A stretch of DNA of 64,000 nucleotides. Source: Haloprofundus salinisoli (GTDB taxonomy: Archaea > Halobacteriota > Halobacteria > Halobacteriales > Haloferacaceae). The stretch is from positions 1,798,001-1,862,000 of the forward strand of contig NZ_CP083663.1 of NCBI RefSeq assembly GCF_020097815.1. The letters are read 5' to 3'. Made by a program: the position numbers and the translations under genes. Positions within the stretch are counted from its first letter, which is position 1. Every line of letters begins with the position of its first letter. Positions 34,818-61,710 of the stretch are shown one piece after another. A model generated the notes under the pieces. That model was given only the letters and a program-made list of their open reading frames with translations, ran no database searches and was not told the origin of the DNA.

Positions 34818-35564
34818 ATGCAGCTCGCCGACGCACTCGCCGCGCGGGAGGGGATGAGCTGCGTCGTCGGCGCGGGCGGCAAGAAGACGACGATGTACGC
34901 CCTCGCGTCGCGTCTCGACCGGGCCGTCGTCACCGCGTCAGTCCGCATCCCGATACCGTCGCTCGAAGAGAACGTCGAAGAAGTCGTCGTCACCGACGAC
35001 CCGCTCGCCGCCCTCGAAGAAGCGGCGCCCGACGACTTTCCGCTCGGCCTCGTTCCCGGTCAGGCCGACGAAATACGGTATCACGGCTACGAGAACGAAC
35101 TCCTCGATAGCCTCGCCGCGGCACACGACGGACCGGTGCTCGTGAAAGCCGACGGCGCGCGGATGCGCGATTTCAAAGCCCCGAGCGACCGCGAACCGCA
35201 GATTCCCGACGAGACGGCGACGGTGCTCCCCATCGCCAGTGCGCACGTCGTCGGCGAACCCCTAGACGAGAAGCTGGTGCACCGACCCGAGCGAGTCGCC
35301 GAAATTACCGGCATCAACGTGGGTGACACGATTACGGCCGAAACGGTTGCGGCCGTGCTCGCCAGCGACGACGGGGGGTTGAAGCGAGTTCCCGAAGAAG
35401 CGACTGCGGTTCCGGTCGTGAACAAAGTCGACACCGAGGCCGATGTGGCGGCCGCCCGGGACGTCGCGGAGACGGTGCTGGAGCGCGCTGGTGATCGGGT
35501 CGCGCGGGTGGTGCTCACTCGATTACTCGACGAGGAGCGTCCGGTCGTCGACGTGGTGGAGTAG
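34818..35564 (+). CDS. yqeC: YqeC-like molybdenum hydroxylase accessory protein
   Basis: The 248-residue protein matches YqeC, a putative GTPase/ATPase found with selenium-dependent molybdenum hydroxylases. It has an N-terminal nucleotide loop in the form VVGAGGKKTTM and the family block VLVKADGARMRDFKAPSDRE, and it ends in a domain with VNKVDTEADV. In this window no selenium enzyme or xanthine-dehydrogenase-type hydroxylase is seen. It lies close to mobA and an AOR gene, which suggests a role in Mo/W cofactor delivery. The function in archaea is not established. Confidence 0.8.
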   Translation: MQLADALAAREGMSCVVGAGGKKTTMYALASRLDRAVVTASVRIPIPSLEENVEEVVVTDDPLAALEEAAPDDFPLGLVPGQADEIRYHGYENELLDSLAAAHDGPVLVKADGARMRDFKAPSDREPQIPDETATVLPIASAHVVGEPLDEKLVHRPERVAEITGINVGDTITAETVAAVLASDDGGLKRVPEEATAVPVVNKVDTEADVAAARDVAETVLERAGDRVARVVLTRLLDEERPVVDVVE

Positions 35565-36653: not shown

Positions 36654-37271
36654 CTACTCTCCCGCCAACTCCGCGGCCGCTTTCTCGAACTCCTCGCGCG
36701 TGTTCAGGTTCTCGAACGTTCGCAAGCTCCCGTGCTCAGAAACTTCCGACTCGTCGACGACGACGTAGTCCAACTCGAACAGCGGATCGATAATCTTCCG
36801 CGCGCCCGTTTCGAGCGCCGCGTCGCAGGCGTCGGCCATCGCGTCCGCCCGGTAGACGGCGTGCGTCGTCTGAAACCACTCGTCATCTAATCGCGGCACG
36901 GCGGCGTCGTGGCCCTCGGCGCGTTCGAACAGGTACGAGACGACATCGGGGTCGACAAAGGGCATGTCGCAAGCGACGACGACGGCGTACTCGCCGGAGA
37001 CGGCCCGAAGACCGGTTCGGATCCCCGACATCGGCCCCTCGTCGGGCGTCTCGTCCTCGGCGGCGGAGACCGGATGTGGATATCCCTCGAACGCGTCGCG
37101 TATCGCCGCGCGCTGGTCGGCGCGGCAGTTCACCACGAGAGAGTCGACGACGCCCGCGAGTCGGTCGCCGACGCGGCGAATCATCGGCGTACCCGCGAGG
37201 TCGGCGGTCGCTTTGTCCGCGTCGCCGAAGCGGGTCGAACGACCGCCGGCGACGATGACTGCCGTGCGCAT
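36654..37271 (-). CDS. mobA: Molybdenum cofactor guanylyltransferase MobA
   Basis: The 205-residue nucleotidyltransferase attaches GMP to molybdopterin (or its tungsten form), giving the guanine dinucleotide cofactor used by DMSO-reductase-family enzymes such as the formate-dehydrogenase-like protein at 47058. The family motif is VIVAGGRSTRFGDADKATADL, followed by DEGPMSGIRTGLRA and VVACDMPFVDPDVV. ATG 37271 places the GG motif at residue 8 as usual; the frame above is Arg-rich and unlikely. It is divergent from the AOR gene at 37400. Confidence 0.9.
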   Translation of the reverse strand: MRTAVIVAGGRSTRFGDADKATADLAGTPMIRRVGDRLAGVVDSLVVNCRADQRAAIRDAFEGYPHPVSAAEDETPDEGPMSGIRTGLRAVSGEYAVVVACDMPFVDPDVVSYLFERAEGHDAAVPRLDDEWFQTTHAVYRADAMADACDAALETGARKIIDPLFELDYVVVDESEVSEHGSLRTFENLNTREEFEKAAAELAGE

Positions 37272-37399
37272 GTGTGGCGGTTCGAGACGACGGAGCATGC
37301 TTCTTGCGCCGGTACGCGCCGCGTCCGTCAACCGCCTCCCGCCGTCTAGCCGACCGCCCCGCCAACGCTTATTGCCGTGAGGAATCATTTATAAATCAG

Positions 37400-39241
37400 A
37401 TGACGACTCCCACGCGCGACGCCGTGCTGCGGGTGGACCTCTCGGCGGAGACCGTCGAGAGAGAGCGCGTCCCCGAGGAGTGGCGACGCGACTACCTCGG
37501 CGGGAAGGGGTTGGGCGCGCGCTACCTCTACGCCGACCTCGCCCCCGGCGTCGACCCGCTGGGGCCCGACAATCTGCTCTCCTTCATGCTCGGCCCGCTG
37601 TCGGCGTATCTCCCGGGTGAGACGCGCTACGCGGCGGTGACGAAGTCGCCGCTCACCGGCGGCTTTCTCGACTCCTACAGCGGCGGGTCGTTCCCTGAAT
37701 GCCTCGCAGGGTCGCTCGGCGACTGTCTCGGACTTCTGGTCACCGGCCGCGCCGAGAGACCGGTGACGCTCGTCGTCGAAGACGGAACGGCGACGATAGA
37801 GCCCGCCGACGAGCTGTGGGGCCGCGACACCGTCGAGACGGACGCGGCATTTCCCGACGCCGCCGTCGCCTGCATCGGGCCGGCCGGCGAGTCCGAAGTC
37901 GCCTACGCCACCGTCGCCTCCGACGGCGGCGACCACCACGCCGGACGCGGCGGCGCGGGGGCGGTTATGGGTTCGAAGCGACTGAAAGCCGTCGTCGCCC
38001 GCGGCGACGCCCCCGAGGTGCCGTCCGCGCTCCGCGACCTGCGCGAGCGGTACGAACGCCAGTACGAGAACCACGATACGGGCCGCTGGCAGGCCGCGGG
38101 CGAGACCTTAGAGAGCGTCGACTTCGCCAACGAGGTCGGCGTCCTCGCCACCGAAGGTTGGCAGCGCGGCCAGTTCGACTCGGCCGAGAACATCGGCATC
38201 GAGGCGGCGCGCGAGGCTGCGGTCGGACGCGAACGCGACACCGAGACCGCCCCCGGTGGCTTTCGCGTCCGGACCGAAGACGGCGAGAGCGTCCCGCGGG
38301 GGGCCGCGCCGATGACGCTCGGGGCGGGACTCGGCGTCGAGGAGTTCGACGCCGTCGCGGCGCTCGGCGAGACCTGCGACCGGCTCGGCGTCGACGTGAT
38401 AAGCGCCGGGAACGCCGTCGCGTGGGCCATCCGCGCCGCCGCCGCCGACCTCGTCGAGACCGACGCCCGCTTCGGCGACGACGAGGCGGCCCGCCGACTG
38501 CTCGCCGCAATCGCCTCGCGCGACGGCGAACTGGCCGACGCGCTCGCAGACGGCGTCGCCGAAGCCGCGGCGCGCTACGGCGGCGACGGGTTCGTCCCGA
38601 CAGTCAAGTCGATGGAACTGCCGTCGTACGACCCGCGCGGCGCGGTCGGGATGGCACTGGCGTACGCGACGAGCGACCGGGGTGCCTGCCACCGCCGCGC
38701 TAGACCGGTCGAACGCGAGGTGTTCGAGGCGTGGGACGACGCGGACGTGGTCGACGCCGTCGCGGGCGCACAGATCGTTCGCTCGGTGCTCTGGAGCCTC
38801 GTCGCCGACGACTTCGTCGGCGAGACGATGTGGGACGACCTCGGTGCGGCGTGGTTGGACGCGGTCGGACTGCCCCACGACGCCGACGAACTGACCCGAA
38901 CCGGCGAGCGCATCTGGACGCTCGTCCGCCTCTTCAACGTCCGCGAGGGGTTCGACCGGAGCGACGACGCGCTCCCGGAGACGCTTCGTCGCCCGCTCTC
39001 GGAGGGCCCGGCCGCCGGACGCGCCATCGACCCCGAAGCGTTCGAACGCCTGCTCGACGCCTACTACGCCACCCGCGGGTGGGGCCCCGACGGCCACCCG
39101 ACCCAGGCGACAGTCGAGCGACTCGGCCTCGGAGGCGTCGTCGACGACGCGACGACACTGGCCGAAGAGGCGGCGACGGCGAACCCGGAGCGCGAGACGA
39201 CCGCGATCACCGACGACCGACACGACAGAGATGACAGATAG
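37400..39241 (+). CDS. AOR-family oxidoreductase lacking the [4Fe-4S] ligands
   Basis: The 613-residue protein has the AOR N-terminal domain (LRVDLSAETVERERV, YLGGKGLGARYLYADL) and pterin-binding segments (HAGRGGAGAVMGSKRLKAVV, TSDRGACHRRA). Known AORs bind a [4Fe-4S] cluster through CxxCxxxC and one later Cys. Here the CxxCxxxC position reads ERDTETAPGGFRVRTEDG, and the later site reads IVRSVLWSLVADDF instead of an ICKF-type block, so all four ligands are absent. It may bind W-pterin without the cluster or have lost redox function. ATG 37400 follows GTGAGG. TTTATAAAT just before it is too close to act as its TATA box; CGCTTATTG, 25-30 bases upstream, fits better. Confidence 0.88.
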   Translation: MTTPTRDAVLRVDLSAETVERERVPEEWRRDYLGGKGLGARYLYADLAPGVDPLGPDNLLSFMLGPLSAYLPGETRYAAVTKSPLTGGFLDSYSGGSFPECLAGSLGDCLGLLVTGRAERPVTLVVEDGTATIEPADELWGRDTVETDAAFPDAAVACIGPAGESEVAYATVASDGGDHHAGRGGAGAVMGSKRLKAVVARGDAPEVPSALRDLRERYERQYENHDTGRWQAAGETLESVDFANEVGVLATEGWQRGQFDSAENIGIEAAREAAVGRERDTETAPGGFRVRTEDGESVPRGAAPMTLGAGLGVEEFDAVAALGETCDRLGVDVISAGNAVAWAIRAAAADLVETDARFGDDEAARRLLAAIASRDGELADALADGVAEAAARYGGDGFVPTVKSMELPSYDPRGAVGMALAYATSDRGACHRRARPVEREVFEAWDDADVVDAVAGAQIVRSVLWSLVADDFVGETMWDDLGAAWLDAVGLPHDADELTRTGERIWTLVRLFNVREGFDRSDDALPETLRRPLSEGPAAGRAIDPEAFERLLDAYYATRGWGPDGHPTQATVERLGLGGVVDDATTLAEEAATANPERETTAITDDRHDRDDR

Positions 39242-40022
39242 CATCGACCTCGACGAACTGGACGTATCGACCGACAGCGACGCGGAGAAACCGAACCGGG
39301 GCGACTGGTTCTGGATGGGCGAAGGCGACCCTGACGACGAAGCTGACGCCGCCGACGCGGGCGACGACTCCGACGAGTCACCCGACTCGTCCAGTTCGGC
39401 CGGCGACGACGTCACCGCCTCGGTGAACTCGGACGCCGATACCGGGGCCGACCACCGCGCCATCCCGCGCGTGCCACGTACTAACGACGGCAGTCCGGTC
39501 GGTATCCCCATCGAGGGTGGCGGCGCGGGCGGCGCGGCGATGGGGAGCGCCAGTGACCAGGAAGCTGACACCGACGCGGACGCGGAACCGGAACCTACGG
39601 GGCCGCACGGCAGCGGCCCCTCCGAGATGACGATGGCGCTGACGTACGAAGCAGTGAAACGACTGGAGAATCCGGCGGCCGCCTTCGCCGACGCCGAAGG
39701 GTGGACCGACTGGTTGGGCATCGTCGGCGACGTGGACGCCCACGTCATCACCAAGTTCCAGCGCGAGTCCGTCGTCGACGTCGACTTCTTCAACGGCACC
39801 GGCACCGGTCCCGCGGAGCGCCTCGCCGGTATCGACGGTCACTCGATGTTCTTCGCCGAGCGCATGGCCGTCGTCGGCGTCGCGGGCGTCGACGAGTACA
39901 TCGCCGAGGACAGCGGGTGGGAGTTCGTCCCGCTGTCGACGGCAGCCGAGAAGGCCGGGTGGTCGCTGGCCGACGAGCCCAGTGACCCCCGAGCGGACGG
40001 CGGCGACGGCTCAGGTACGTAG
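39231..40022 (+). CDS. Acidic protein coupled to the cluster-less AOR, function unknown
   Basis: The 263-residue protein overlaps the AOR gene by 11 bases, so the two are co-translated. About 135 residues are a highly acidic, disordered-looking N-terminus. An ordered domain of about 105 residues follows (MTMALTYEAVKRLENPAAAF, WTDWLGIVGDVDAHVITKFQ, GIDGHSMFFAERMAVVGVAG). No cysteines or known motif occur. The tight link suggests a partner or maturation role for the AOR-like protein, which is inference. Confidence 0.75.
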   Translation: MTDSIDLDELDVSTDSDAEKPNRGDWFWMGEGDPDDEADAADAGDDSDESPDSSSSAGDDVTASVNSDADTGADHRAIPRVPRTNDGSPVGIPIEGGGAGGAAMGSASDQEADTDADAEPEPTGPHGSGPSEMTMALTYEAVKRLENPAAAFADAEGWTDWLGIVGDVDAHVITKFQRESVVDVDFFNGTGTGPAERLAGIDGHSMFFAERMAVVGVAGVDEYIAEDSGWEFVPLSTAAEKAGWSLADEPSDPRADGGDGSGT

Positions 40023-43454: not shown

Positions 43455-44084
43455 TCATCTGACCATCTGCGCGACCAGTTCGTCCTCGAACTCGACGACA
43501 CCCGCGAAGACGAGCGCCGCCGCCCGGAACAGGGGTTCTTCCGTCTCGTCGAGCACGTCGTCGACGAACGCCTCGTGCCACGACGTGAGATGCTCGTCGA
43601 GGAAGACGCGTTCGTAGCCGAACGCCTCCTCGGCTCCGTGGTACTGTCGTTCGACGAGATAGCGAAGAAAGGCGAGTTCGACAGCGATGAAGTCGTTCTC
43701 TTCGCCGTACTCCTCGGGCGGTTTCCACCCGGCGGCGGCGTAACTGGCTTCGACTTTCGCCAACCCCTCGCCGATGAAGCTGGTATCCTCGCGGTAGTAC
43801 GTTTCGTGCGCCAGGACGGGCGGGCGCGGTCCGACGAACACGCGCGTGTACTCTCGCGCCAGTTCGTCTCGAACCGCTGCCGTGTCACGGCCCTCGTTGT
43901 CGGCGACGAACTGCCGGAGCAGGTCGAACCCCGCGTCCAACGACTCGTTCACCTTCGCGTCCGGCAACTGGAGGCCGTCGCCGAGCAGGTCCGCTAGAAA
44001 CGCCTCGTCGGGCACGTCCCAGAACACCTCGGCGACGAAGTCCAACAGTTCGAGGCGGGCGTCGTAGACGGCAGCGTCGTCCAT
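43455..44084 (-). CDS. TorD/DmsD-family molybdoenzyme chaperone
   Basis: The 209-residue all-helical protein has the TorD-superfamily pattern. Its key stretch (DELAREYTRVFVGPRPPVLA followed by HETYYRE) matches the YxxLFxGPxxxxxPPYES-type core, and it lies mid-protein. Such chaperones bind the Tat signal of a molybdoenzyme until cofactor and clusters are loaded. The obvious client is the Tat-signal-bearing formate-dehydrogenase-like subunit at 47058. Its ATG overlaps the stop of the polyferredoxin gene by one base. Confidence 0.85.
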   Translation of the reverse strand: MDDAAVYDARLELLDFVAEVFWDVPDEAFLADLLGDGLQLPDAKVNESLDAGFDLLRQFVADNEGRDTAAVRDELAREYTRVFVGPRPPVLAHETYYREDTSFIGEGLAKVEASYAAAGWKPPEEYGEENDFIAVELAFLRYLVERQYHGAEEAFGYERVFLDEHLTSWHEAFVDDVLDETEEPLFRAAALVFAGVVEFEDELVAQMVR

Positions 44085-46210
44085 CACCGACCACCTCCGT
44101 GCTCGAATAGCAGTCCGGCGCGACAGTCGCCGCAGTAATCGAAGACGCTCGCTTCGGCGTTCGGCGCGATTCCTTCGACGACGTCGCCGACCTCGCCTTT
44201 CACCTTCTCGATGGAACCCATACTGGCGAACGGCTTGCCGCAGCGGACGCACTCGGCCATCTGGCCCTCGAACACCGTCTCCCAGCGCTCACCGTCGGTG
44301 CGCTCGGGGAGTCGAGAGAGGTCCAGACCCGTCTCGATGGTGATGGCCGTCTCCGGACAGCCCTCCTCGCAGAGTCCGCAGTTGACGCAGTCCTCGTGAC
44401 TGAACTGCAGGTCGCCGTCGGTCGTCCGCCGGATGGCATCGGTCGGACAGAGCGTCGAACAGGTCGGCGTGAGGTTGCACGCCTCGCTCACCTCCATCAG
44501 ACCGAACGCCTCCAAGCCCCGAATCACGTCCCGGTTGGGGTCGGTGCGGTCGACGATCGATCGAACGCTCTCGAGCGCCCAGTCGTGGGTGTTGAACGCC
44601 GGATTCGGCTTGTCGTCGCGGACGACGCCCGTCGCGCGGTGTTCGCCCGCCGAAATCGGCGTCTCCGAGAGGCCGTCGACGAACGCGCTCACGTCGTCGA
44701 CGAACGACTCGTGGTCGTCCGGGTCGGGTGCGAAGAAACTGACGCGCTCGTCGAGACCGAGGTCGGTCGTCGCGCGGTTCAGCCGTTCCACGAGTTCGGC
44801 CTTCGGGTCCGGTCCGGAGTGCAGACAGCTCTCGCCGCACCCGACGATGGCGACGCCGTCGGCCCCCGCGGCGAGCGCGTGGAGGACGTGCGCTTCGCCG
44901 ACGGTGTCGGTGCAGTTCACCGAGACGGGGAGAATCGGGGGATAGGTGAATTCGGTGCCGCTGGCGGCGCGCCGACCGTAGGCGCGGAGCGCGTCGGCGG
45001 CGCGTTCCGAGCAGACGAACGCGACGACCGGCGTCTCGATGCCCTGCTTCCCTCGGCTGAACAACCAGCCGCTGCCCTGTTCTTCGACGTCCAAAAGCGC
45101 CTCCACCTCGCGGGCGAGGCGCTCGTTCGAGGGTTCGCGGAGCATCGTCGCGCCCGTCGGGCAGGCGCTCGTACACGCCCCGCAGTCCTGACACGCCACT
45201 TCGTCGAACTCGACGGAGTCGACGGTCGGTCGCCGGACCGCGTCGTGCGGGCAGGCATCGGTGCAAGCGGTACAGCCCTGCTGGCTCGACTCGCCGGCCG
45301 CGCAGACGTCGAGTTCGAGGTCCAGATGCTTCGGCTTCGTGACGCCGCCGAGGAGACTCTCGACGGCAGCGACGGTTCCGGCGTCGACGGGGCCGGTGTA
45401 GAAGCCGAGTCGGCCGCCCCGCGCGACGGATGGCGAGTCGGTAGAGACCACCTGGTCAGCGTCGACGGTTCGCTCGACGCCCGAGCGGTCGATGGCGTCG
45501 GTCGGGCAGCACTCCTCCCACTCGCCGCCGGGGGCGTCGGGATCGATGTCGACGGGGTAGCGCGTCAGCATCCCGTCGGGACCCTCCTTTACGCACTTCA
45601 TGCAGGAGACGCAGTCCTCTGTCACTTCGGACCTGAGCGTGAGTTCGAAGCCGCCGAACTCGCCCTCGACAGCGACGACGCGCCCGCGCTCGACGGTCAC
45701 GTTCGACAGGTCGGCGTCGACGTCATGGAAGTCGCGGCCGTCGGCGACGAGCGTCACCTCGGCGGAGTCTGCGAGCGCGGCGGCCGTCTCGGCGTCGCCG
45801 ACGACGACGACGGCGTCACCCGCCTCGCCGGTGACGGTGCGGGTCGCCGCCTCGTGTTCGAGTCCGGCGCGGCGCGCGTTCAGCAGCCGGGAGGTCTTGT
45901 CGGTGGCCGCGTCGCGTTCGTGGACCCAGCCCGCGCCCGCGCGGTGGTCGACGAACGAGGTGGCCTCCGGGTGGAGTCCCTTCTCTTCGGCGAGTGCGCG
46001 GAAGCGTCGCTGGCAGCCCGAATCCGGGGCGGTAACGAGTAACTGGTCGAGTTCGTACTCGTCGACGAGCTGCGCCATCGCGGGGAGGCCGTCCTCACAG
46101 AGTAGCGTCGAACTGGCGACGATGTCCACGTCACGGACGCCGTCTCGCGTTCGTTCGAGGTCGATGTCGCAGGCGTCGCCGCAGGAGCACACAAAGGCGC
46201 CGACGTTCAT
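44084..46210 (-). CDS. HdrA-like/FlpD-like polyferredoxin
   Basis: The 708-residue protein begins like HdrA (VGAFVCSCGDACDIDLE, then LLCEDGLPAM and LLVTAPDSGCQRRF). Next is a shortened Rossmann-like stretch (DAVVVVGDAETAAAL) in place of a full flavin domain. A cluster region follows (CVSCMKC, ECCP), then two ferredoxin motifs (GCTACTDACP, CQDCGACTSACP), an MvhD/FlpD domain (VVAFVCSERAADALRAYG, GADGVAIVGCGESCLH) and two more motifs (CNLTPTCSTLCP, CVNCGLCEEGCP). It ends in a CxxC/CxxC ribbon. It probably passes electrons between ferredoxin-type carriers and the divergent formate-dehydrogenase-like complex. Start ATG 46210 is set by the HdrA N-terminus. Confidence 0.85.
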   Translation of the reverse strand: MNVGAFVCSCGDACDIDLERTRDGVRDVDIVASSTLLCEDGLPAMAQLVDEYELDQLLVTAPDSGCQRRFRALAEEKGLHPEATSFVDHRAGAGWVHERDAATDKTSRLLNARRAGLEHEAATRTVTGEAGDAVVVVGDAETAAALADSAEVTLVADGRDFHDVDADLSNVTVERGRVVAVEGEFGGFELTLRSEVTEDCVSCMKCVKEGPDGMLTRYPVDIDPDAPGGEWEECCPTDAIDRSGVERTVDADQVVSTDSPSVARGGRLGFYTGPVDAGTVAAVESLLGGVTKPKHLDLELDVCAAGESSQQGCTACTDACPHDAVRRPTVDSVEFDEVACQDCGACTSACPTGATMLREPSNERLAREVEALLDVEEQGSGWLFSRGKQGIETPVVAFVCSERAADALRAYGRRAASGTEFTYPPILPVSVNCTDTVGEAHVLHALAAGADGVAIVGCGESCLHSGPDPKAELVERLNRATTDLGLDERVSFFAPDPDDHESFVDDVSAFVDGLSETPISAGEHRATGVVRDDKPNPAFNTHDWALESVRSIVDRTDPNRDVIRGLEAFGLMEVSEACNLTPTCSTLCPTDAIRRTTDGDLQFSHEDCVNCGLCEEGCPETAITIETGLDLSRLPERTDGERWETVFEGQMAECVRCGKPFASMGSIEKVKGEVGDVVEGIAPNAEASVFDYCGDCRAGLLFEHGGGR

Positions 46211-46214
46211 ACTC

Positions 46215-46233
46215 GTGTGATAGCTTACCACAC
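46215..46233. promoter_or_regulatory. Inverted repeat just upstream of the polyferredoxin start
   Basis: GTGTGATAGCTTACCACAC is an inverted repeat with half-sites of type GTGTGRTA. It lies 5-23 bases before the ATG at 46210. TATA-like AGATATTTCC (minus strand, about 46271-46280) is further upstream, so the repeat would fall in the leader or at the transcript start. Part of it (TGTGATAGCTTAC) resembles TGTGCATAGCTAAC at 47006-47019 before the divergent operon. Confidence 0.4.
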
Positions 46234-46339
46234 GTGAAAGCCTTTGCGCGCCGACAAGATTCAAAAGAAAGGAAATATCTCTGCAGGGAGATAGTTGACA
46301 GAAGAACTCAGTGGTTTGTGGAACGTCCTTGAGCCAACC

Positions 46340-46687: not shown

Positions 46688-47057
46688 CTCCTCTCAACAC
46701 CTAATCGACTCTTTGCTAGCGGATCACCGCTTAGCCTACGGCGAGCGGTCCAAGTGTTCCCGTGAGACCACGATTCAAAGGCGGTCTGAGTCGGTCCCTT
46801 CGGAGTTCAGTTCGCCAACGGTACCGAAACGCGTCACCGAACCGTATATTAGCGAGTTCTACCGTTTTCGCCATTTCTTCATGCCGCCATCTGCTTCGTG
46901 CATTTTCTATTACTGGAGAGATTAATAGATGGAACGATAACATCTGGCGACTGTATCCCAGTTCCACCATAACACTCATTATTAAACATGCTGGATATTT
47001 GAGCATGTGCATAGCTAACAGCGGACAATCACCGCAGTTGAAAGATAGGTGGAGATC
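46688..47057. promoter_or_regulatory. AT-rich control region of the formate-dehydrogenase-like operon
   Basis: No supported gene lies in these 370 bases, which are clearly richer in A and T than the surroundings. Candidate TATA boxes on the plus strand are CATTATTAAAC (about 46976-46986) and GGATATTTG (about 46992-47000), followed by TGTGCATAGCTAAC (47006-47019). AGGTGG, five bases before ATG 47058, is the ribosome binding site. Confidence 0.5.
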
Positions 47058-50000
47058 ATGAGTTCGGAACCCGTTTCGCTGGATCTCGACCGTCGGTCGT
47101 TCATGAAGGCTAGCGCGCTCGCCGGCGCACTCGCGTTGGGAGGGAGCGCAACAGGCCAGGTGCTCGCTCAGAGCGAAAGTGACGAAGAGGGTGGAGCAGA
47201 TACGGAAGGGGAACTTGTAAAGACGATTTGTAACTTCTGCGCCGTCGGCTGCGGGTTCAAAGGCGAGCGGAAGGGCAACGCGTTCGTCGGCCAGGAACCG
47301 TGGTTCGAACACCCAGTCAACAACGGTTCGCTCTGTTCGAAAGGTGCAGCGATTTACGGCAGTGAACACTCGCCGAAACGACTGAAACACCCCCTGAAAC
47401 TCGAAGAGGGCGAGTGGAAGAAGATTTCGTGGGGCGAAGCAATGGGCGAGATTGGCGACGAACTCCTGCGTATCCGCGACGAGTACGGCCCGGATAGTGT
47501 CATGTGGCTCGGAAGCGCCCACCACGCTAACGAGGAGGCGTACGCCTTCCGTAAACTCGCCGCGCTTTTCGGAACGAACAACGTCGACCACCAAGCGCGC
47601 ATCTGCCACTCCACGACCGTCGCCGGTCTCGCAAACACGTGGGGCTACGGTGCGATGACGAACACGATAAATGACTACCGGAACTACGACCTCGACATCA
47701 TCATCGGGCAGAACCCCGCCGAGGCTCACCCAATCGCGATGCAACACATCCTCGAGGGTCAGAGACGCGGCGGCACGATCGTCTCGGTCGACGCCCGGTA
47801 CACGAAGACGTCGGCACACGCTGACCACTTCTACCGTATCCGTCCCGGTACGGACGTTGCGCTGATGATGGGGATCATCCGCTACCTCCGCGAGCAGGGC
47901 GAACTCGATCAGCAGATGATCAACGACCGAGTCCAAGGGTGGCCCGACGTCGACGCCAAACTCGACAGATACGACCTCGACACGGTCGAAGACATCACTT
48001 GGGTGAGCAAGGATGACATCCAGGAACTCGGCGACCTCATCATCGAGAACAAGCCGAACGTCCAAATCGAGTGGGCGATGGGCGGAACCCAGCACAACAA
48101 CGGGACCCAGAACATCCGTTCGTACGCGCTGACGAGCCTCGGGTCGGGCTGTGCGGCCCGCAGCGGCGGCGGATTGCAGGTAATGCGCGGCCACTCGAAC
48201 GTCCAGGGCGCGACCGACCTCGGCCCGAACAGCCACATCCTTCCGGGGTACTACTCCAATGACTCGCCGGGGTCGTGGGCTTACTGGACCGACGTCTGGA
48301 ACGAGAGCCCGTGGACCAGCGGGAGCATCTCCATGTCAGAGATGTACGATCGTTTCGAGATGATGTCGAAGGAGAAGTACGAGGCGCAGGGCGGCTCCGA
48401 GTCCACCTTCGAGAACGAGGGCCTCGAGGTCAACAGCCGATCGATGATGCTCCAGAGCGGACTCACCGTCGCCCGGTGGTTCGAGGCAGCCCTCGACAAG
48501 AAGGACCGGCTGAACCAGTCCGAACTCTACCAGCCGAACAAGGTGAAGGCGGCCATCTACGACGGACACTCCACGAACTCCATCAGCGAGATGGACAAGC
48601 AGAAGAAGGCGTTGGAGAACCTCGACCTGCTGGTCGTCGTGGACATGTTCCCGTCGTTGGCGTCGGTGATGCACAACCGCGACGACGGCGTCATCCTATT
48701 ACCGGCGTCGAGCCAGTACGAACACCACGGCACCGTTACCAACTCCCACCGCTCGGTGCAGTGGCGCAACCCCGTCCGGCCGCCGGGCCACAACTCCAAG
48801 ACGGACATGGAGATTATCCAGCTGTTCGCCGACGCGCTCGGATTCGGCGAGCATTTCGACTGGGGCAGCGGCAACGGCCTGTTCAATGGGCGCTCCACCT
48901 ACGAGGATGCGCTCCGCGAAATCAATCTCGGAGTGCGCACCATCGGCTATCAGCAGGACCCCGAGCGTCTCCAGCGCCAATACGAGTACGACTGGGCGTT
49001 CAGCACGGAAGACCTGAAGGTCGACAAGCCTGGGCTCCCGGTCAGCGGTGAGTACTGGCAGCTCCCGTGGCCGTGCTGGGGTGAAGGACATCCAGGTACG
49101 CCCATCATCTGGCGCGATGATATTGACCCGCGCGAGGGCGGCCAAGACTTCCGCGCCCGCTGGGGAACGAAAGCGCCGACGCCGCAAGAGTGGCAGAAGA
49201 TGAGCGATGCAAAGGGCATTCAGAAAGAGTACCCGTTCAAGGAGACGGTGAAGCAGCAAGGCCAGAAAGGTCTGGACATGCTTCGAGCGCCGTACAAACC
49301 CGACTGGTACGGCGGCAAGGAGATAAAGGGCGTTCCGGAGTACCCCAACTTCTCCACTGCGTGGCCGAAGGATGTCGCGAATCCCGACTCGCTTTCGATT
49401 CCGTACGAGTACGCGCTTCGAGCGGACAAATCGCCCTATGATGCTGCGAAGGAGCTCAAGAAGCGCGGCGCCGACGTCAATCCGAAGGAGTACGAGCCGT
49501 ACGACGTCAAGCAACCTGATCCACCGACCGGTCGAGGGCGTGCCCGCGGTGTCGCCTGGGACTTCTTGGACACCGTCCCCGTCCACCGCGAACCGGTCGA
49601 GAGTCCGCGCCCGGACCTGGTCGAAAAGTGGCCCGCGAACGGTCGGCAGACGAACTTCTATCGGGTCGACCAGAACAATGCGGAGGTCCAGAAACGAGCG
49701 ACTACGGCGGCGCAAAAGCAGGGCATGAACATCATCATGACGACCGGACGCCAGGTCGAGCATCAGGGTGGTGGGTCTGAGTCGCGCTCGAACATTTTCC
49801 TGGCCGACCTTCAGCCGCACATGTACGCCGAAATTCATCCGAATCTGGCCGAGCAAATCGGCATCGACGGTGGCGACCTGGTCGTCGTTTCGACGACAGA
49901 CCGGGGGTCTATCCTCGTGAAGGCGCGGGTAACCCATCGACCGAACGAGAAAGAGACGTTCCTGCCGTTCCACTGGGGTGGCGTCTACCACGGGAAGAGC

Positions 50001-50252
50001 CTAGAGGAGAAGTACCCCGACGGAATGGCACCGTTCGCCATCGGGGACAGCGTGAATATCATCACGTCTCGCGGGTACGACGTCGAGACCCAGATGCAGG
50101 AAACGAAGCCTGCGATGGTGAAAATCCAGAAGGCGACTACCGACCTACTCGAGAGGCTGAATATGGATACCGACCTCACGTTCCCGCAGGACCGTGATGG
50201 CGTCGGCCTGCAGAAAGATTTCGACGTCCGTGACTCGAAAACTGTTCAATGA
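47058..50252 (+). CDS. Formate-dehydrogenase-like molybdopterin oxidoreductase, catalytic subunit
   Basis: The 1064-residue protein has a Tat signal (DRRSFMKASALAGALALGGS), so the complex faces outward. An N-terminal [4Fe-4S] site follows (Cys58-x2-Cys61-x3-Cys65 and Cys93, in ICNFCAVGCG and GSLCSKG). The block NNVDHQARICHSTTVAGLAN corresponds to the Sec/Cys metal ligand region of FDH-N; Cys183 (TGC at 47604) takes the place of selenocysteine. QNPAEAHPIAMQHILEG and a C-terminal dinucleotide-binding domain (HMYAEIHPNLAEQIGIDGGD) follow. Length and order fit formate dehydrogenase alpha, though related substrates cannot be excluded. ATG 47058 with AGGTGG is preferred over GTG 47049. Confidence 0.88.
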   Translation: MSSEPVSLDLDRRSFMKASALAGALALGGSATGQVLAQSESDEEGGADTEGELVKTICNFCAVGCGFKGERKGNAFVGQEPWFEHPVNNGSLCSKGAAIYGSEHSPKRLKHPLKLEEGEWKKISWGEAMGEIGDELLRIRDEYGPDSVMWLGSAHHANEEAYAFRKLAALFGTNNVDHQARICHSTTVAGLANTWGYGAMTNTINDYRNYDLDIIIGQNPAEAHPIAMQHILEGQRRGGTIVSVDARYTKTSAHADHFYRIRPGTDVALMMGIIRYLREQGELDQQMINDRVQGWPDVDAKLDRYDLDTVEDITWVSKDDIQELGDLIIENKPNVQIEWAMGGTQHNNGTQNIRSYALTSLGSGCAARSGGGLQVMRGHSNVQGATDLGPNSHILPGYYSNDSPGSWAYWTDVWNESPWTSGSISMSEMYDRFEMMSKEKYEAQGGSESTFENEGLEVNSRSMMLQSGLTVARWFEAALDKKDRLNQSELYQPNKVKAAIYDGHSTNSISEMDKQKKALENLDLLVVVDMFPSLASVMHNRDDGVILLPASSQYEHHGTVTNSHRSVQWRNPVRPPGHNSKTDMEIIQLFADALGFGEHFDWGSGNGLFNGRSTYEDALREINLGVRTIGYQQDPERLQRQYEYDWAFSTEDLKVDKPGLPVSGEYWQLPWPCWGEGHPGTPIIWRDDIDPREGGQDFRARWGTKAPTPQEWQKMSDAKGIQKEYPFKETVKQQGQKGLDMLRAPYKPDWYGGKEIKGVPEYPNFSTAWPKDVANPDSLSIPYEYALRADKSPYDAAKELKKRGADVNPKEYEPYDVKQPDPPTGRGRARGVAWDFLDTVPVHREPVESPRPDLVEKWPANGRQTNFYRVDQNNAEVQKRATTAAQKQGMNIIMTTGRQVEHQGGGSESRSNIFLADLQPHMYAEIHPNLAEQIGIDGGDLVVVSTTDRGSILVKARVTHRPNEKETFLPFHWGGVYHGKSLEEKYPDGMAPFAIGDSVNIITSRGYDVETQMQETKPAMVKIQKATTDLLERLNMDTDLTFPQDRDGVGLQKDFDVRDSKTVQ

Positions 50253-50261
50253 GGTGATACT

Positions 50262-50933
50262 ATGTCAACAAACAACTCGAACCAAGTAATGGGCCAAGGC
50301 GTCATGAGCGTCGGTGAGGACGCGCGAATCTTCCCCGACGTAGAGGCGTGTATCGACTGTGGCGGCTGCGTCGTCGCCTGCAAACGAACCTGGGACGTCC
50401 CGCGAGACGAACAGCGCATCAGCATCTCGACGATGCTCGAAGGGCAGGAGGCGGCGGCAGGGCTCAACGCCAACAGCGCGCAGGCGCTTAGACAAGGCCA
50501 GTCGCCCGGTGAGACGAGCGTGCCGATGCAGTGCTACCACTGCGAGAACGCCCCCTGCGTCTCGGTCTGCCCGACCGACTCGCTGTTGAAGAAGGACAAC
50601 GGCTTCGTCGAGGTCAGAGACGACCTCTGCGTCGGCTGTCAGTACTGCCTGTCGGCGTGTCCGTTCGGTGCGCCGCAGTTCCCCGAGGCGGACGAGGGAG
50701 CGGCGAAACTCTTCGGCACCGGCGGGACGATGGACAAGTGTACGATGTGCGAGGAGCGCCAGGACGTCGGCAAGGGTCCGGCCTGCGCCGAGGAGTGCGC
50801 GACGGACGCTATCCTCGTCGGGACGACCGGTCAGATAGCCGAAGAACTCGACAAGCGCGGCAGCGCGTCGTTCTTCAATCAGGAGGCGATGGAGATCATC
50901 TTCGGTGAGGAGGGCGCGAGGGAGTTCCAATGA
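50262..50933 (+). CDS. Formate-dehydrogenase-like iron-sulfur subunit
   Basis: The 223-residue protein has four four-cysteine groups for four [4Fe-4S] clusters: CIDCGGCVVAC, CYHCENAPCVSVC, CVGCQYCLSAC and CTMC with CAEEC. This is the DmsB/FdnH-type electron conduit from the catalytic subunit to the membrane. It lacks the C-terminal anchor helix of E. coli FdnH. It has no signal peptide, so it would be carried out with the Tat-exported partner. GAGGTGATACT precedes the ATG, and the next gene overlaps its stop by four bases. Confidence 0.92.
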   Translation: MSTNNSNQVMGQGVMSVGEDARIFPDVEACIDCGGCVVACKRTWDVPRDEQRISISTMLEGQEAAAGLNANSAQALRQGQSPGETSVPMQCYHCENAPCVSVCPTDSLLKKDNGFVEVRDDLCVGCQYCLSACPFGAPQFPEADEGAAKLFGTGGTMDKCTMCEERQDVGKGPACAEECATDAILVGTTGQIAEELDKRGSASFFNQEAMEIIFGEEGAREFQ

Positions 50934-51367
50934 ACCGTTCGCTGCCCGAGACGAGAGATTACAGCGGGCTGGCTATCGCCGTCAACGCGGTCATCGCCAT
51001 CGCCGTCACCGCTGTCGTCGTCTGGTTGGCGTCGGGGTTCGCATTCAACGCAGAGGCGCTTTTCCGTGTCGGTCCAACCGTCGAAGCCGGCGGTATCGGT
51101 GCGGACTGGCGCGCCGGTAACACGATTCCGGCGCTGGACTTCCTCATCGCGTTCGTCCACGCGGCCGACGTACTGATGGGCATCTTCATCCTCGTGATGG
51201 TGTTCGTCCACTGGGGCGCGTTCCGTCGCCTGGCCTCGCGGATGCGCCAACCCGGCGAAGCGGCGCGCTACGAATCCGACGCCGTCGCCGACGGCGGCCG
51301 AGCGGTCTCCAGCAGGGCCTCGGACTCCGGTGACGACGCTCCCGACCCACGGGGTGACGACCGATGA
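50930..51367 (+). CDS. Small membrane subunit of the formate-dehydrogenase-like complex
   Basis: The 145-residue protein has two helices (about 13-35 and 65-88) and a long polar, acidic tail. The second helix, FLIAFVHAADVLMGIFILVM followed by VFVH, has two histidines about 17 residues apart, facing opposite ends of the membrane. That could be haem or quinone contact, but this is a guess. It overlaps both neighbours by four bases, so it belongs to the complex or its assembly. Its family is not recognised; E. coli FDH-N has no counterpart. Confidence 0.65.
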   Translation: MNRSLPETRDYSGLAIAVNAVIAIAVTAVVVWLASGFAFNAEALFRVGPTVEAGGIGADWRAGNTIPALDFLIAFVHAADVLMGIFILVMVFVHWGAFRRLASRMRQPGEAARYESDAVADGGRAVSSRASDSGDDAPDPRGDDR

Positions 51368-52368
51368 CGAACTTGGACCACGGGAAGTTCACCGGGATGA
51401 CGACGACGTTCCACACGCTGTTGGCGCTGGACGTGTTCATCCTGTTCTTCTCGGGGTACGGGATGATGTTCAACGACGAACTCTGGTGGCTCGTCACGCT
51501 GATGGGCGGCAACACCGGCGTGACGGCGGTCCACCGCATCGCGGGACTCGGCCTCGTCGCGCTCATCGTCTTCTGGATGCTGATGATGCTGACGACGAGC
51601 ACCGGTCGCAGCAACTTCCGCGAGATTCTGATGGGCCCCGACGACATCGCCGCGATGATACAGGACATCAAGTTCGTCCTCGGGATGGCCGACGAGCGCC
51701 ACTCGAACGCCCGACAGTTCGCGGGTTACAACTCCGACGAGGTACCGCTGCTGTCGTACGTCGGCAAGGGCGTCGTCTACATCTTCTCCGTCGAACTGCT
51801 GCTTCTGACCATCTCCGGTCTTCTCATCTGGAGCAAGACCGGCGTCATGCAGTACTTCGCCACCAAAACGGCGGCGATGGCGTTCGTCGTCTTCCACGGT
51901 CTGCTCGGCGTCATCATGCTGATGGGTGTGATGTTCCACATCTTCGAGCACGGCTTTCACCCGGCGTTCTACCCGGTGGAGGTGAAGGCGTTTATCCCTC
52001 GAAAACTGATTCCGGAGGAGCACGCCGACACCGACCACGACTCGACCGGCATCAGTCAACTCGGCCTCGCGCCGTCGTGGGGGTGGGCGACGAACGTCAT
52101 GGGCGTGCTCACCGTCATCGGCATCGTGAGCGTTCTCGTCGGGAGCATCTTCGACGAAGGCTACCCTGTCCCGCGCGAACTCGTCGTCGGCGGGGGTCCG
52201 ACGGACCTGTTGTTGACTGTCGGCATCAATATCGGCATCCTCGTGCTGTTCATCGGCATGGCGCTGCAGATGTACGGTAACCTGCTGCGCGTCCGCTGGC
52301 AGAAGCAGTTGGCCGAGGAGGCTCGCACGACGGCGGCGACGGACGGCGGACAGGTGAACGACCACTGA
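51364..52368 (+). CDS. Cytochrome b subunit of the formate-dehydrogenase-like complex
   Basis: The 334-residue protein has a core of four helices with histidines suited to two b haems (FHTLLALDVFILFF, VHRIAGLGLVALIV, VVFHGLLGVIMLMGVMFHIF, EHGFH), as in the FdnI/NarI-like family. Two more helices follow (about 240-262 and 285-305), an extension beyond the usual length. It would pass electrons from the iron-sulfur subunit to menaquinone. The N-terminus FTGMTTTFHTLLAL is typical. It is the last gene of the operon; hairpins follow about 55 bases after its stop. Confidence 0.85.
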   Translation: MTNLDHGKFTGMTTTFHTLLALDVFILFFSGYGMMFNDELWWLVTLMGGNTGVTAVHRIAGLGLVALIVFWMLMMLTTSTGRSNFREILMGPDDIAAMIQDIKFVLGMADERHSNARQFAGYNSDEVPLLSYVGKGVVYIFSVELLLLTISGLLIWSKTGVMQYFATKTAAMAFVVFHGLLGVIMLMGVMFHIFEHGFHPAFYPVEVKAFIPRKLIPEEHADTDHDSTGISQLGLAPSWGWATNVMGVLTVIGIVSVLVGSIFDEGYPVPRELVVGGGPTDLLLTVGINIGILVLFIGMALQMYGNLLRVRWQKQLAEEARTTAATDGGQVNDH

Positions 52369-59778: not shown

Positions 59779-61710
59779 TCAGTCGTCGGCGGGGGCTGCG
59801 GAGTCGCTGCCGCTTTTGACGCCCGTGCCGGGACCGATGTCGATCTCCAACGCGTCGAGTTTCTCGTCGGGGACGACGCCGTCGACCCAGCCGCGGTGGC
59901 TGTAGTACTCCTCTTTCATCTCGTCGAGTTCGCAGAATTCGCCCTCGGAGGCACCCTGTCCGGGGATGCCGCCTTCACCGTCGAGGAACCGCGCTGGCAG
60001 CGAGTCGTCCGCGCCGTCGAAGCCCGCGAGGTTGTTGTAGTAACGTTCGAGGTTGTAGACGCGCTCGCCCGCCTCGATGAGTTCGTCTTCGGTCACGTCG
60101 AGCCCGGTCATGCCGTTGTACTGCATGACGTACTCCTCGATGCCCTCCGCGAAGGCGTTGAACTTGCAGATGTCGAAGCTGTCGGAGATGGCGTGGAGGT
60201 TCTGGAACGTGGCGGTGAGTTCGCCCTTGCCCTCCCACGCGTAGGGGTCGACCTTCTCCGGGACGCCGAGAATCTCGGCGGCCGGGGTGTAGGCGCGCAG
60301 GTGGCACGCCCCGCGGTTCGAGGTGGCGTAGGCGATGCCCATCCCCTTCATGCAGCGCGGGTCGTACGCCGGAATCGTCTGGCCCTTGACCGCCAGCGAG
60401 TTGTCCTCGGCGCCTTTCTGGTCGGCGATGCGCTTTGCACCCTCGGCGAGCAGGTCCGGAAGGCCCTCCTCGCGGTGCGAGATCTGCTCGATGAGGTCGA
60501 CCATCGTCTCGGAGTCGCCCCAGTCGAGCGTGCCGACGTCGTTGAGTTTGCCCTCCTCGGACATCTCCATCGCCATGGCCATCATGTTGCCCACCTCGAT
60601 GGTGTCGATGCCCATGTCGTTGCAGCGGTCGATCATCAGCGCGATGTCGTCGCGCTCGGTGTGGCCCGAGTTCGGGCCGAGCGCGTACGCCGACTCGTAC
60701 TCGTACGACTCCATGCGGACGTTCATCTCCTCGCCCTTGTGCATCGTCGTCACCTCGACTTCCTTCTTACAGGCGACGGGACAGGAGTGACACGTCGGCT
60801 CGTCGACGAGGATGTTCTCGCGGACGTTCTCGCCGGAGATCTCCTCGGCGTCGATGGTCGTGCCCTCGCTCTCGGAGAAACTCCGCGTCGAGGTATACTT
60901 GCCGTTTCTCGTCGGGAGGCCGTCCATCTCCTCGGTGATGTTCATCAGGACGTTCGTCCCGTACATCGAGAGGCCGCCCTCGTTCGGCGCGGTGACGTCG
61001 GACTCCTGGATGGCCTGCATCCCCTGCTGGTAGCCCTTCTGGAACGTCTCGGGGTCCGCGGGTTTCGGCATCCGGGTGCCGGATTTGACGACGACCGCTT
61101 TGAGGTTCTTCGACCCCATCACGCAGCCGGTGCCGCCGCGACCGGACGCGCGGTCGTCCTCGTTGACGATGCAGGCGTAGCGCACGCCGTTCTCGCCGCC
61201 GGGGCCGATTGCCATCACGGAGACGTTCTTGCCGATGGAGCCGTCGACTTCCTCGTCGATGGCTTCGATGGTGTCGTGGACGCCCTTCCCCCACAGATGG
61301 GAGGCGTCGCGGAGTTCGACTTCGCCGTCTTCGACGTACGCGTACACCGGTTTCTCGGCCTTACCGTCGAACAGGAGGCCGTCGAAGCCGGACCACTTGA
61401 GTCGCGCGCCGGACCAACCGCCGTGGTGGGAGTCGGTCACCGTGCCGGTGAGCGGCGACTTCGTGACGACGGCGATGCGGCCGCTCATCACCGTCTGAGT
61501 GCCCGTCAGCGGGCCATTCATGAACGCAAGCCGATTCTCCGGGCCGTCCGGGTCGACGTCCGGGCCGGCGTCGAAGACGTACTTCACGCCGAGGCCGCGC
61601 GCGCCGATGTACTTGCGCGCGTCCTCGTCGTCGATGCCTCGGTAGGCCACCTCACCCGATGTGAGGTCGACCTGTCCTACGTGGTCTTGGAATCCGCCGA
61701 GTTCAGTCAT
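59779..61710 (-). CDS. Aldehyde:ferredoxin oxidoreductase family enzyme
   Basis: The 643-residue enzyme has the AOR N-terminal domain (YIGARGLGVKYVFDAGPDVD, TKSPLTGTVTDSHHGGWSGA) and pterin segments (SGRGGTGCVMGSKNLKAVVV, ATSNRGACHLRAY). Its [4Fe-4S] ligands are complete: Cys307, Cys310 and Cys314 in EPTCHSCPVACKK and Cys515 in FDICKFNAF. It would oxidise aldehydes to acids or run in reverse, using a tungsten (or molybdenum) bis-pterin and passing electrons to ferredoxin. GATTATAA (about 61724-61731), just before the ATG, fits a leaderless promoter. It is not next to the other AOR-like gene at 37400. Confidence 0.93.
   Translation of the reverse strand: MTELGGFQDHVGQVDLTSGEVAYRGIDDEDARKYIGARGLGVKYVFDAGPDVDPDGPENRLAFMNGPLTGTQTVMSGRIAVVTKSPLTGTVTDSHHGGWSGARLKWSGFDGLLFDGKAEKPVYAYVEDGEVELRDASHLWGKGVHDTIEAIDEEVDGSIGKNVSVMAIGPGGENGVRYACIVNEDDRASGRGGTGCVMGSKNLKAVVVKSGTRMPKPADPETFQKGYQQGMQAIQESDVTAPNEGGLSMYGTNVLMNITEEMDGLPTRNGKYTSTRSFSESEGTTIDAEEISGENVRENILVDEPTCHSCPVACKKEVEVTTMHKGEEMNVRMESYEYESAYALGPNSGHTERDDIALMIDRCNDMGIDTIEVGNMMAMAMEMSEEGKLNDVGTLDWGDSETMVDLIEQISHREEGLPDLLAEGAKRIADQKGAEDNSLAVKGQTIPAYDPRCMKGMGIAYATSNRGACHLRAYTPAAEILGVPEKVDPYAWEGKGELTATFQNLHAISDSFDICKFNAFAEGIEEYVMQYNGMTGLDVTEDELIEAGERVYNLERYYNNLAGFDGADDSLPARFLDGEGGIPGQGASEGEFCELDEMKEEYYSHRGWVDGVVPDEKLDALEIDIGPGTGVKSGSDSAAPADD

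Follow-up and report, generated by a model that had tools for sequence, protein, structure and literature searches.

An AOR-family gene beside molybdenum cofactor and formate dehydrogenase genes

The window, by which we mean the whole stretch of 64,000 nucleotides of Haloprofundus salinisoli DNA that was analysed, carries an AOR/WOR-family gene in the company of genes related to the molybdenum cofactor and to formate dehydrogenase (FDH) (Table 1). Its 613-residue product matches the Pfam families AFOR_N (218 bits, cut-off 29.8) and AFOR_C (295 bits, cut-off 27) over a near-complete span, and AOR-family enzymes are its nearest solved relatives. As the sequence-only reading of this DNA had described, a mobA-like gene is divergent from it and yqeC is close by. 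Downstream follow the gene for a DUF7124 protein, small proteins, a DUF7405 protein, a TorD-like chaperone, a FlpD/HdrA-like ferredoxin protein and a membrane FDH-like operon. The FlpD/HdrA-like gene is itself divergent from this operon, an arrangement conserved over several haloarchaeal genera.

Table 1. Features of the window, in coordinates of the 64,000-nucleotide stretch
Feature	Position	Strand	Remarks
yqeC	34818..35564	+	TIGR03172, 174.6 bits, cut-off 73; beyond the mobA-like gene
mobA-like molybdenum cofactor guanylyltransferase	36654..37283	-	112 bits to TIGR02665, below the 151.85 cut-off; divergent from the AOR-like gene
Cys-less AOR/WOR-family protein, 613 aa	37400..39241	+	ATG at 37400, stop ends at 39241; AFOR_N + AFOR_C; without [4Fe-4S] ligands and Glu313/Tyr312
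Former CxxCxxxC region, residues 278-295, ERDTETAPGGFRVRTEDG	38231..38284	+	Ligands 1-3 now T281, A284, F288
Former catalytic-acid region, residues 298-302, VPRGA	38291..38305	+	PfAOR Glu311-Tyr312-Glu313 replaced by Arg-Gly-Ala
Former fourth Cys site, residues 461-472, RSVLWSLVADDF	38780..38815	+	Cys494 replaced by Asp470; Asp489 by Trp465
Acidic protein, C-terminal DUF7124	39231..40022	+	11-base overlap with the AOR-like gene; no Cys, no redox domain
TorD/NarJ-like chaperone	43455..44252	-	PF02613; conserved with the locus, 21/54 loci
FlpD/HdrA-like protein with ferredoxin domains	44084..46264	-	19/54 loci; true start uncertain
Formate-dehydrogenase-like catalytic subunit	47049..50252	+	PF00384; 447 bits to TIGR01591, below the 666 cut-off
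Rest of FDH-like operon	50262..52368	+	Fe-S subunit, protein without assigned function, membrane subunit
Fe-S subunit of FDH-like operon	50262-50933	+	
FDH-like operon protein without assigned function	50930-51367	+	
Cytochrome b561-like membrane subunit of FDH-like operon	51364-52368	+	
Ordinary AOR paralogue, comparison protein	59779..61710	-	All four ligands, Cys307/310/314/515

Alignment with the Pyrococcus furiosus AOR (PfAOR) puts Thr281, Ala284, Phe288 and Asp470 of the 613-residue protein at the positions of the cluster ligands Cys288, 291, 295 and 494. The sequence-only reading was right that all four iron-sulfur ligands have been lost here, and right that the window's second AOR has them. 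The two former ligand sites read ERDTETAPGGFRVRTEDG (from residue 278) and RSVLWSLVADDF (from residue 461); AGRGGAGAVMGSKRLKAV (from residue 181) and DRGACHRRA (from residue 426) are likewise present as exact strings. The protein has only five cysteines (101, 109, 158, 326 and 430) and no CxxC pair. None of the five falls in a cluster position in the alignment, which had been proposed as a check on the loss, and substitution of the four ligands by other cysteines of the protein was rejected, as no candidate was found.

Extent of the loss and state of the pterin pocket

Orthologues were found in 104 of 148 genomes of the same family, and a scan of named contigs with two peptide patterns gave at least 80 loci, at least 53 of which are haloarchaeal Cys-less orthologues. 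For the alignment, 101 Cys-less rows, which join two collections with a few genomes present in both, were set beside 50 other AOR-family members from archaea and bacteria. A cysteine occurs at any of the four ligand columns in 0/101 of the former, whereas 50/50 of the latter have all four, and no intermediate between no cysteine and four was found among these rows. Being common to 101/101 rows, the loss is not a sequencing accident; it belongs to a haloarchaeal clade, a point that the earlier reading had put forward for checking. All Cys-less rows are haloarchaeal among the matches listed, though members outside Halobacteria may exist. The third ligand position is Phe or Tyr in all 101 clade rows, and the Cys494 position is Asp (Asp470) in every row having a residue there. 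What the earlier reading missed is that the neighbouring Glu311, Tyr312 and Glu313 have been replaced throughout the clade as well: by Arg, by Gly, and by Ala, Gly or (once) Ser, respectively, each in 101/101 rows. In AORs, a role in acid-base catalysis has been proposed for Glu313 (PMC10413684, PMC12096430).

A quickly computed tree of 51 proteins, which has some long branches in other places, separates the Cys-less proteins from the rest by a branch whose SH-aLRT support is 100, and the loss is one change on it. Their neighbours are cluster-bearing haloarchaeal proteins from Halorubrum and Haloferax; the nearest, from Halorubrum halodurans (L125) and Haloferax marinum (L127), are 42-44% identical to the clade. 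These sisters share His182-His183 and Tyr93 with the clade. Unlike it, they keep the four cysteines and Glu-Tyr-Glu, and no FDH, yqeC, mobA or other searched neighbour gene was found beside them in the loci examined. Halorubrum halodurans has both types (L116 and L125). Given the one branch and the two types in a single species, the history is most simply that a duplicate lost the cluster and the catalytic acid together and then reached many haloarchaeal families by descent or by spreading. Some Cys-less copies are located on megaplasmids; for such plasmid-borne orthologues, RefSeq gives only the name "aldehyde ferredoxin oxidoreductase C-terminal domain-containing protein". Automatic annotation of clade proteins as aldehyde ferredoxin oxidoreductases is likely to be wrong in function.

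Purifying selection has maintained the clade, whose proteins keep the AOR fold and part of the pterin pocket. Between species within the genus, dN/dS is 0.15-0.26, and with this value of about 0.2 and the clade-wide conservation a pseudogene was rejected. The AlphaFold model calculated from 89 diverse sequences is confident (pLDDT 94.9, pTM 0.94), which mended residues 233-315, poorly modelled from 25 close sequences. VIA Z-scores of 50.8 to FOR (1b25), 50.4 to AmWOR (9mqx) and 49.7 to PfAOR (1aor) are tied; the model superposes on known AORs at 1.8-2.0 Å over about 570-580 residues (VIA-align), with TM-scores of 0.88-0.90 to the best matches and 32-33% identity to AOR/WOR structures in the structural alignment. 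Thus, both marks of the AOR/WOR family, full-length AFOR_N and AFOR_C and the three-domain AOR fold, are present. The modelling that the earlier reading had suggested for the pterin site bears out the fold; by residue comparison, the pocket is kept on one side only.

The pterin-contact residues compared are those listed for the Aromatoleum enzyme (PMC10413684). Arg76 (96/101 rows), Gly95 and Asp343 (all rows) and the AGRGG motif are kept, as in AOR/WOR enzymes, and the invariant clade positions include the pocket motifs SPL, DSY-GG, AGRGG, DPR and DRG-CHRR. On the other side, Arg182 has become His, Asp489 Trp and Cys494 Asp. The claim that the pterin-binding blocks are kept therefore holds for the first side and fails for the second. 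In a known structure, Cys494 forms a hydrogen bond with the cluster-proximal pterin (PMC10413684), and its change to Asp is seen in the Cys-less clade only. His182-His183 and Trp/Phe489 are also present in some cluster-bearing relatives, so alone they mark no loss of pterin binding. With part of the pocket changed in this way, there may no longer be room for two pterins. Among the second-shell residues, Thr243 (101/101), His448 (100/101) and Tyr427 (94/101) are shared with AOR/WOR enzymes and Glu313 is not (0/101), so that the usual set of four is never complete. The old cluster region has gained new invariant residues, namely Arg300, Gly301, Trp465 and Asp470-471, and since these took over the old site, a new role is indicated rather than decay.

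By descent the clade is AOR-family, and on its sequence it is neither a Class I WOR nor a ferredoxin-linked aldehyde oxidoreductase. The definition of Class I WORs asks for a single [4Fe-4S] cluster bound by CxxCxxxC and a further, distant Cys (PMC13328260), and all orthologues have none of these four ligands. The cluster motif is reported to be kept in 99% of AOR sequences (PMC10413684), and a review describes the W cofactor of every tungstoenzyme as coupled to a nearby [4Fe-4S] cluster (PMC12096430). Changed cluster ligands are known from P. furiosus WOR4, in which one Cys is Gly, with an Fe3S4 cluster and no activity found, and from WOR5, in which three Cys and one Asp are the ligands (PMC12096430); unlike the clade (0/4), both retain three cysteines and a cluster. 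Two further AOR-family proteins, YdhV of E. coli and the benzoyl-CoA reductase BamB, lack the usual second-shell residues (PMC12096430). In both, a Cys coordinates the metal, and both are reported to contain a [4Fe-4S] cluster; the clade, unlike them, has no candidate for such a Cys, its cluster ligands are absent, and its Glu313 region reads VPRG(A/G), which would place it outside the YdhV/BamB type. We found no described Fe-S-free AOR clade in the open-access literature. WOR4 and WOR5 show the loss or swap of a single ligand; new here, as far as the alignments and that literature tell, is a clade without any of the four.

Linkage and co-inheritance with formate dehydrogenase and yqeC

The Cys-less gene is linked to yqeC, mobA and formate dehydrogenase genes and is inherited along with them, a setting that also separates the clade from other AOR/WOR proteins. 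We compared 54 loci, among the matches listed, with flanks mostly of 7 kb (22.6 kb for the window). By hand counts from the neighbourhood table, an FDH-cluster gene is nearby in 40/54 and FDH, yqeC or mobA in 47/54 of the stored flanks; the remaining 7/54 have none of the three nearby, and none was seen near the Cys-less gene on Halorussus and Halostagnicola plasmids. Across whole genomes, at least 31/105 Cys-less genes lie within 500 bp of yqeC and at least 13/105 within 500 bp of an FDH gene; at least 40/105 are within 12 kb of a TIGR01591 FDH gene, and at least 73/105 within that distance of such a gene or yqeC. Among the matches listed, 38/105 Cys-less genes are within 12 kb of a listed PF00384 gene versus 1/31 cluster-bearing AOR control paralogues.

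The FDH settings are of at least two unlike kinds: the window has a membrane-type FDH, and other loci have an NAD-type FDH that includes a NuoF-like subunit. DUF7124 occurs mainly in the membrane-type setting. The sequence-only reading had named this overlapping acidic protein as a possible electron taker; it has no cysteine and no redox domain in Pfam or NCBIfam, and it was detected at under half of the orthologous loci (25/54). Electron transfer to it was rejected on these grounds, and DUF7124 is not a general electron acceptor. Several cassettes carry further genes. In Haloferax (L093, L097) and Halorubrum (L100), a Zn formaldehyde dehydrogenase gene is near FDH, the Cys-less gene and yqeC; NuoF and mobA occur as well in the two Haloferax copies, and L097 further includes a CobW-family GTPase and a Rid-family protein. 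On Haloterrigena turkmenica pHTUR02 (L155), the Cys-less gene is flanked on one side by genes for BCCT transporters, a Rieske dioxygenase and an FAD oxidoreductase and on the opposite side by NuoF, fdhF and glyA, a cassette that looks like betaine demethylation plus formate oxidation.

Co-inheritance points the same way. Among the 148 genomes, yqeC is present in 103/104 of those having the Cys-less gene (15 have yqeC alone) and FDH in 100/104, with Fisher p values of 1e-18 and 1e-12 that are only indicative, because haloarchaeal genomes are related and independence is overstated; on the same footing, the FDH association holds inside genomes with any PF00384 enzyme (p 9e-7) and no association with Mo hydroxylases is seen (p 0.26). 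In the Haloferax-like genus, all 7 gene-bearing species have a 1110-aa FDH about 7 kb away and yqeC adjoining the Cys-less gene, and 0/8 other species have that FDH. Genetic linkage and co-inheritance with FDH and molybdenum cofactor genes, by which an FDH cofactor maturation factor would be judged, are thus both found. FDH is present without the Cys-less protein in 19 genomes, which speaks against a general requirement for FDH, so any maturation role is limited to certain FDH types.

yqeC, named as a selenium cofactor gene, is present in 118/148 genomes, 112 of the 119 with FDH and 6 of the 29 others. SelD exceeds its cut-off in 1/148 genomes, so YqeC is unlikely to be a selenium gene here; its role in these haloarchaea is probably selenium-free. 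With no Mo hydroxylase match in the window genome either, a selenium role via YqeC was rejected. The single SelD-bearing genome has a second yqeC (44% identical) that lies some 0.4 kb from selD, with two MoCoBD_1 genes close by, and this region (G039:C1:2520627-2531356) looks like a true selenium-dependent Mo-hydroxylase cluster. Selenocysteine from an in-frame TGA in many genomes was also rejected, as the frames are whole and the stop falls at the alignment end.

Possible roles of the cluster-free protein

The sequence-only reading had left three options for a protein without the cluster: another electron acceptor, non-redox action, or a hand-off of electrons to a partner. Non-redox action is the most plausible, because Glu313 and Tyr312 were lost along with the cluster; hand-off to DUF7124 falls away. 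We propose that the protein is a non-redox pterin-binding AOR paralogue serving FDH cofactor assembly, and we put the probability of this at about 0.4. For an AOR-fold protein that has neither electron relay nor catalytic acid and whose gene stands next to mobA, yqeC and FDH, the simplest reading is a scaffold or carrier role in the assembly of the FDH cofactor. The protein would no longer be an aldehyde oxidiser. It would bind a molybdopterin (MPT), metal-loaded or not, most likely in the nucleotide-free bis-MPT form, and act as a scaffold, carrier or protected store; it could hand the pterin to the adjacent MobA for guanylylation, or take it over from an earlier step. Losing the cluster would suit a protein that binds and releases a cofactor instead of relaying electrons.

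AOR proteins are built for, and naturally hold, nucleotide-free bis-MPT. MobA forms bis-MPT and attaches GMP to it, which yields bis-MGD, the cofactor of FDH; the bis-MPT step on MobA has been called incompletely resolved (PMC9103625). From bis-Mo-MPT extracted out of YdhV, an AOR-family protein, MobA produces bis-MGD, which activates apo-TorA (PMC9103625). A narrower form of our proposal, in which a cluster-free AOR-fold protein acts together with MobA and YqeC as the non-redox carrier or scaffold for nucleotide-free bis-molybdopterin in building the haloarchaeal FDH cofactor, is tentative, and the odds are against it in this specific form.

The chief rival is an enzyme of C1 metabolism that would act on formaldehyde, formate or an adduct, either without redox chemistry or with direct hydride or electron transfer to a partner, its link to FDH arising because it feeds or shares the formate pathway. 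Non-redox reactions with a W cofactor do exist, as in acetylene hydratase. The Zn formaldehyde dehydrogenase genes of the Haloferax and Halorubrum cassettes and the betaine-demethylation-like setting on pHTUR02 would fit such an enzyme, as would the largely kept Thr243, Tyr427 and His448 and a formaldehyde ferredoxin oxidoreductase as top VIA structure, though this is tied with other AORs. However, the protein lacks Tyr312 and the proposed general base Glu313 and offers electrons no way out, formaldehyde dehydrogenase genes occur in only 5/54 loci, where a formaldehyde oxidiser is then already present, and the tightest linkage is to yqeC. Inactivity does not follow from the loss of Glu313 alone, given that YdhV and benzoyl-CoA reductase also lack the usual second-shell residues (PMC12096430). 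On balance we regard a C1 enzyme as unlikely.

It is more doubtful still that the protein is a subunit of the FDH complex, a catalytically dead AOR domain with a structural, docking or gating part and any redox step left to a partner. It does share its clusters with two kinds of FDH, and some of its genes directly neighbour an FDH gene (the 13/105 or more above). However, the gene is often several kb from FDH, in other transcription units, and divergent from mobA or yqeC; 19 genomes have FDH genes without it; and the pterin-pocket motifs, needless for a purely structural role, are among its most conserved parts. There is rather little to recommend a sensor or store of molybdopterin or of tungstate/molybdate, reporting cofactor status off the FDH path: the pocket motifs are retained, the catalytic groups are lost and the orientation is divergent from mobA or yqeC in many loci, but the protein consists of two Pfam domains only and has no DNA-binding or signalling domain. 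Least probable by far is a working oxidoreductase with an iron-sulfur cluster or other metal centre on Cys158, 326 and 430 plus Asp470 or a His, for although these three cysteines are invariant in the clade, and the Asp at its fourth ligand position recalls WOR5, where an Asp serves as cluster ligand (PMC12096430), Cys326 and Cys430 align with PfAOR 337 and 447, which cluster-bearing AORs already have, so they are not replacement ligands, and the protein has no CxxC and no nearby substitute for the three CxxCxxxC ligands.

A whole clade across many haloarchaeal families has thus gone without the cluster and the catalytic acid and has long been conserved, in contrast to accounts in which the cluster is universal or nearly so (PMC12096430, PMC10413684, PMC13328260). 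The gene-bearing genera, such as Haloferax and Haloarcula, include culturable species, which makes the question directly testable. If pterin handling for FDH is confirmed as its role, the clade would be an example of a metalloenzyme turned cofactor handler, and it would give YqeC a selenium-free context. If the protein is a carrier of bis-MPT, this would mean a non-catalytic role for the AOR family and an extra component in bis-MGD assembly.
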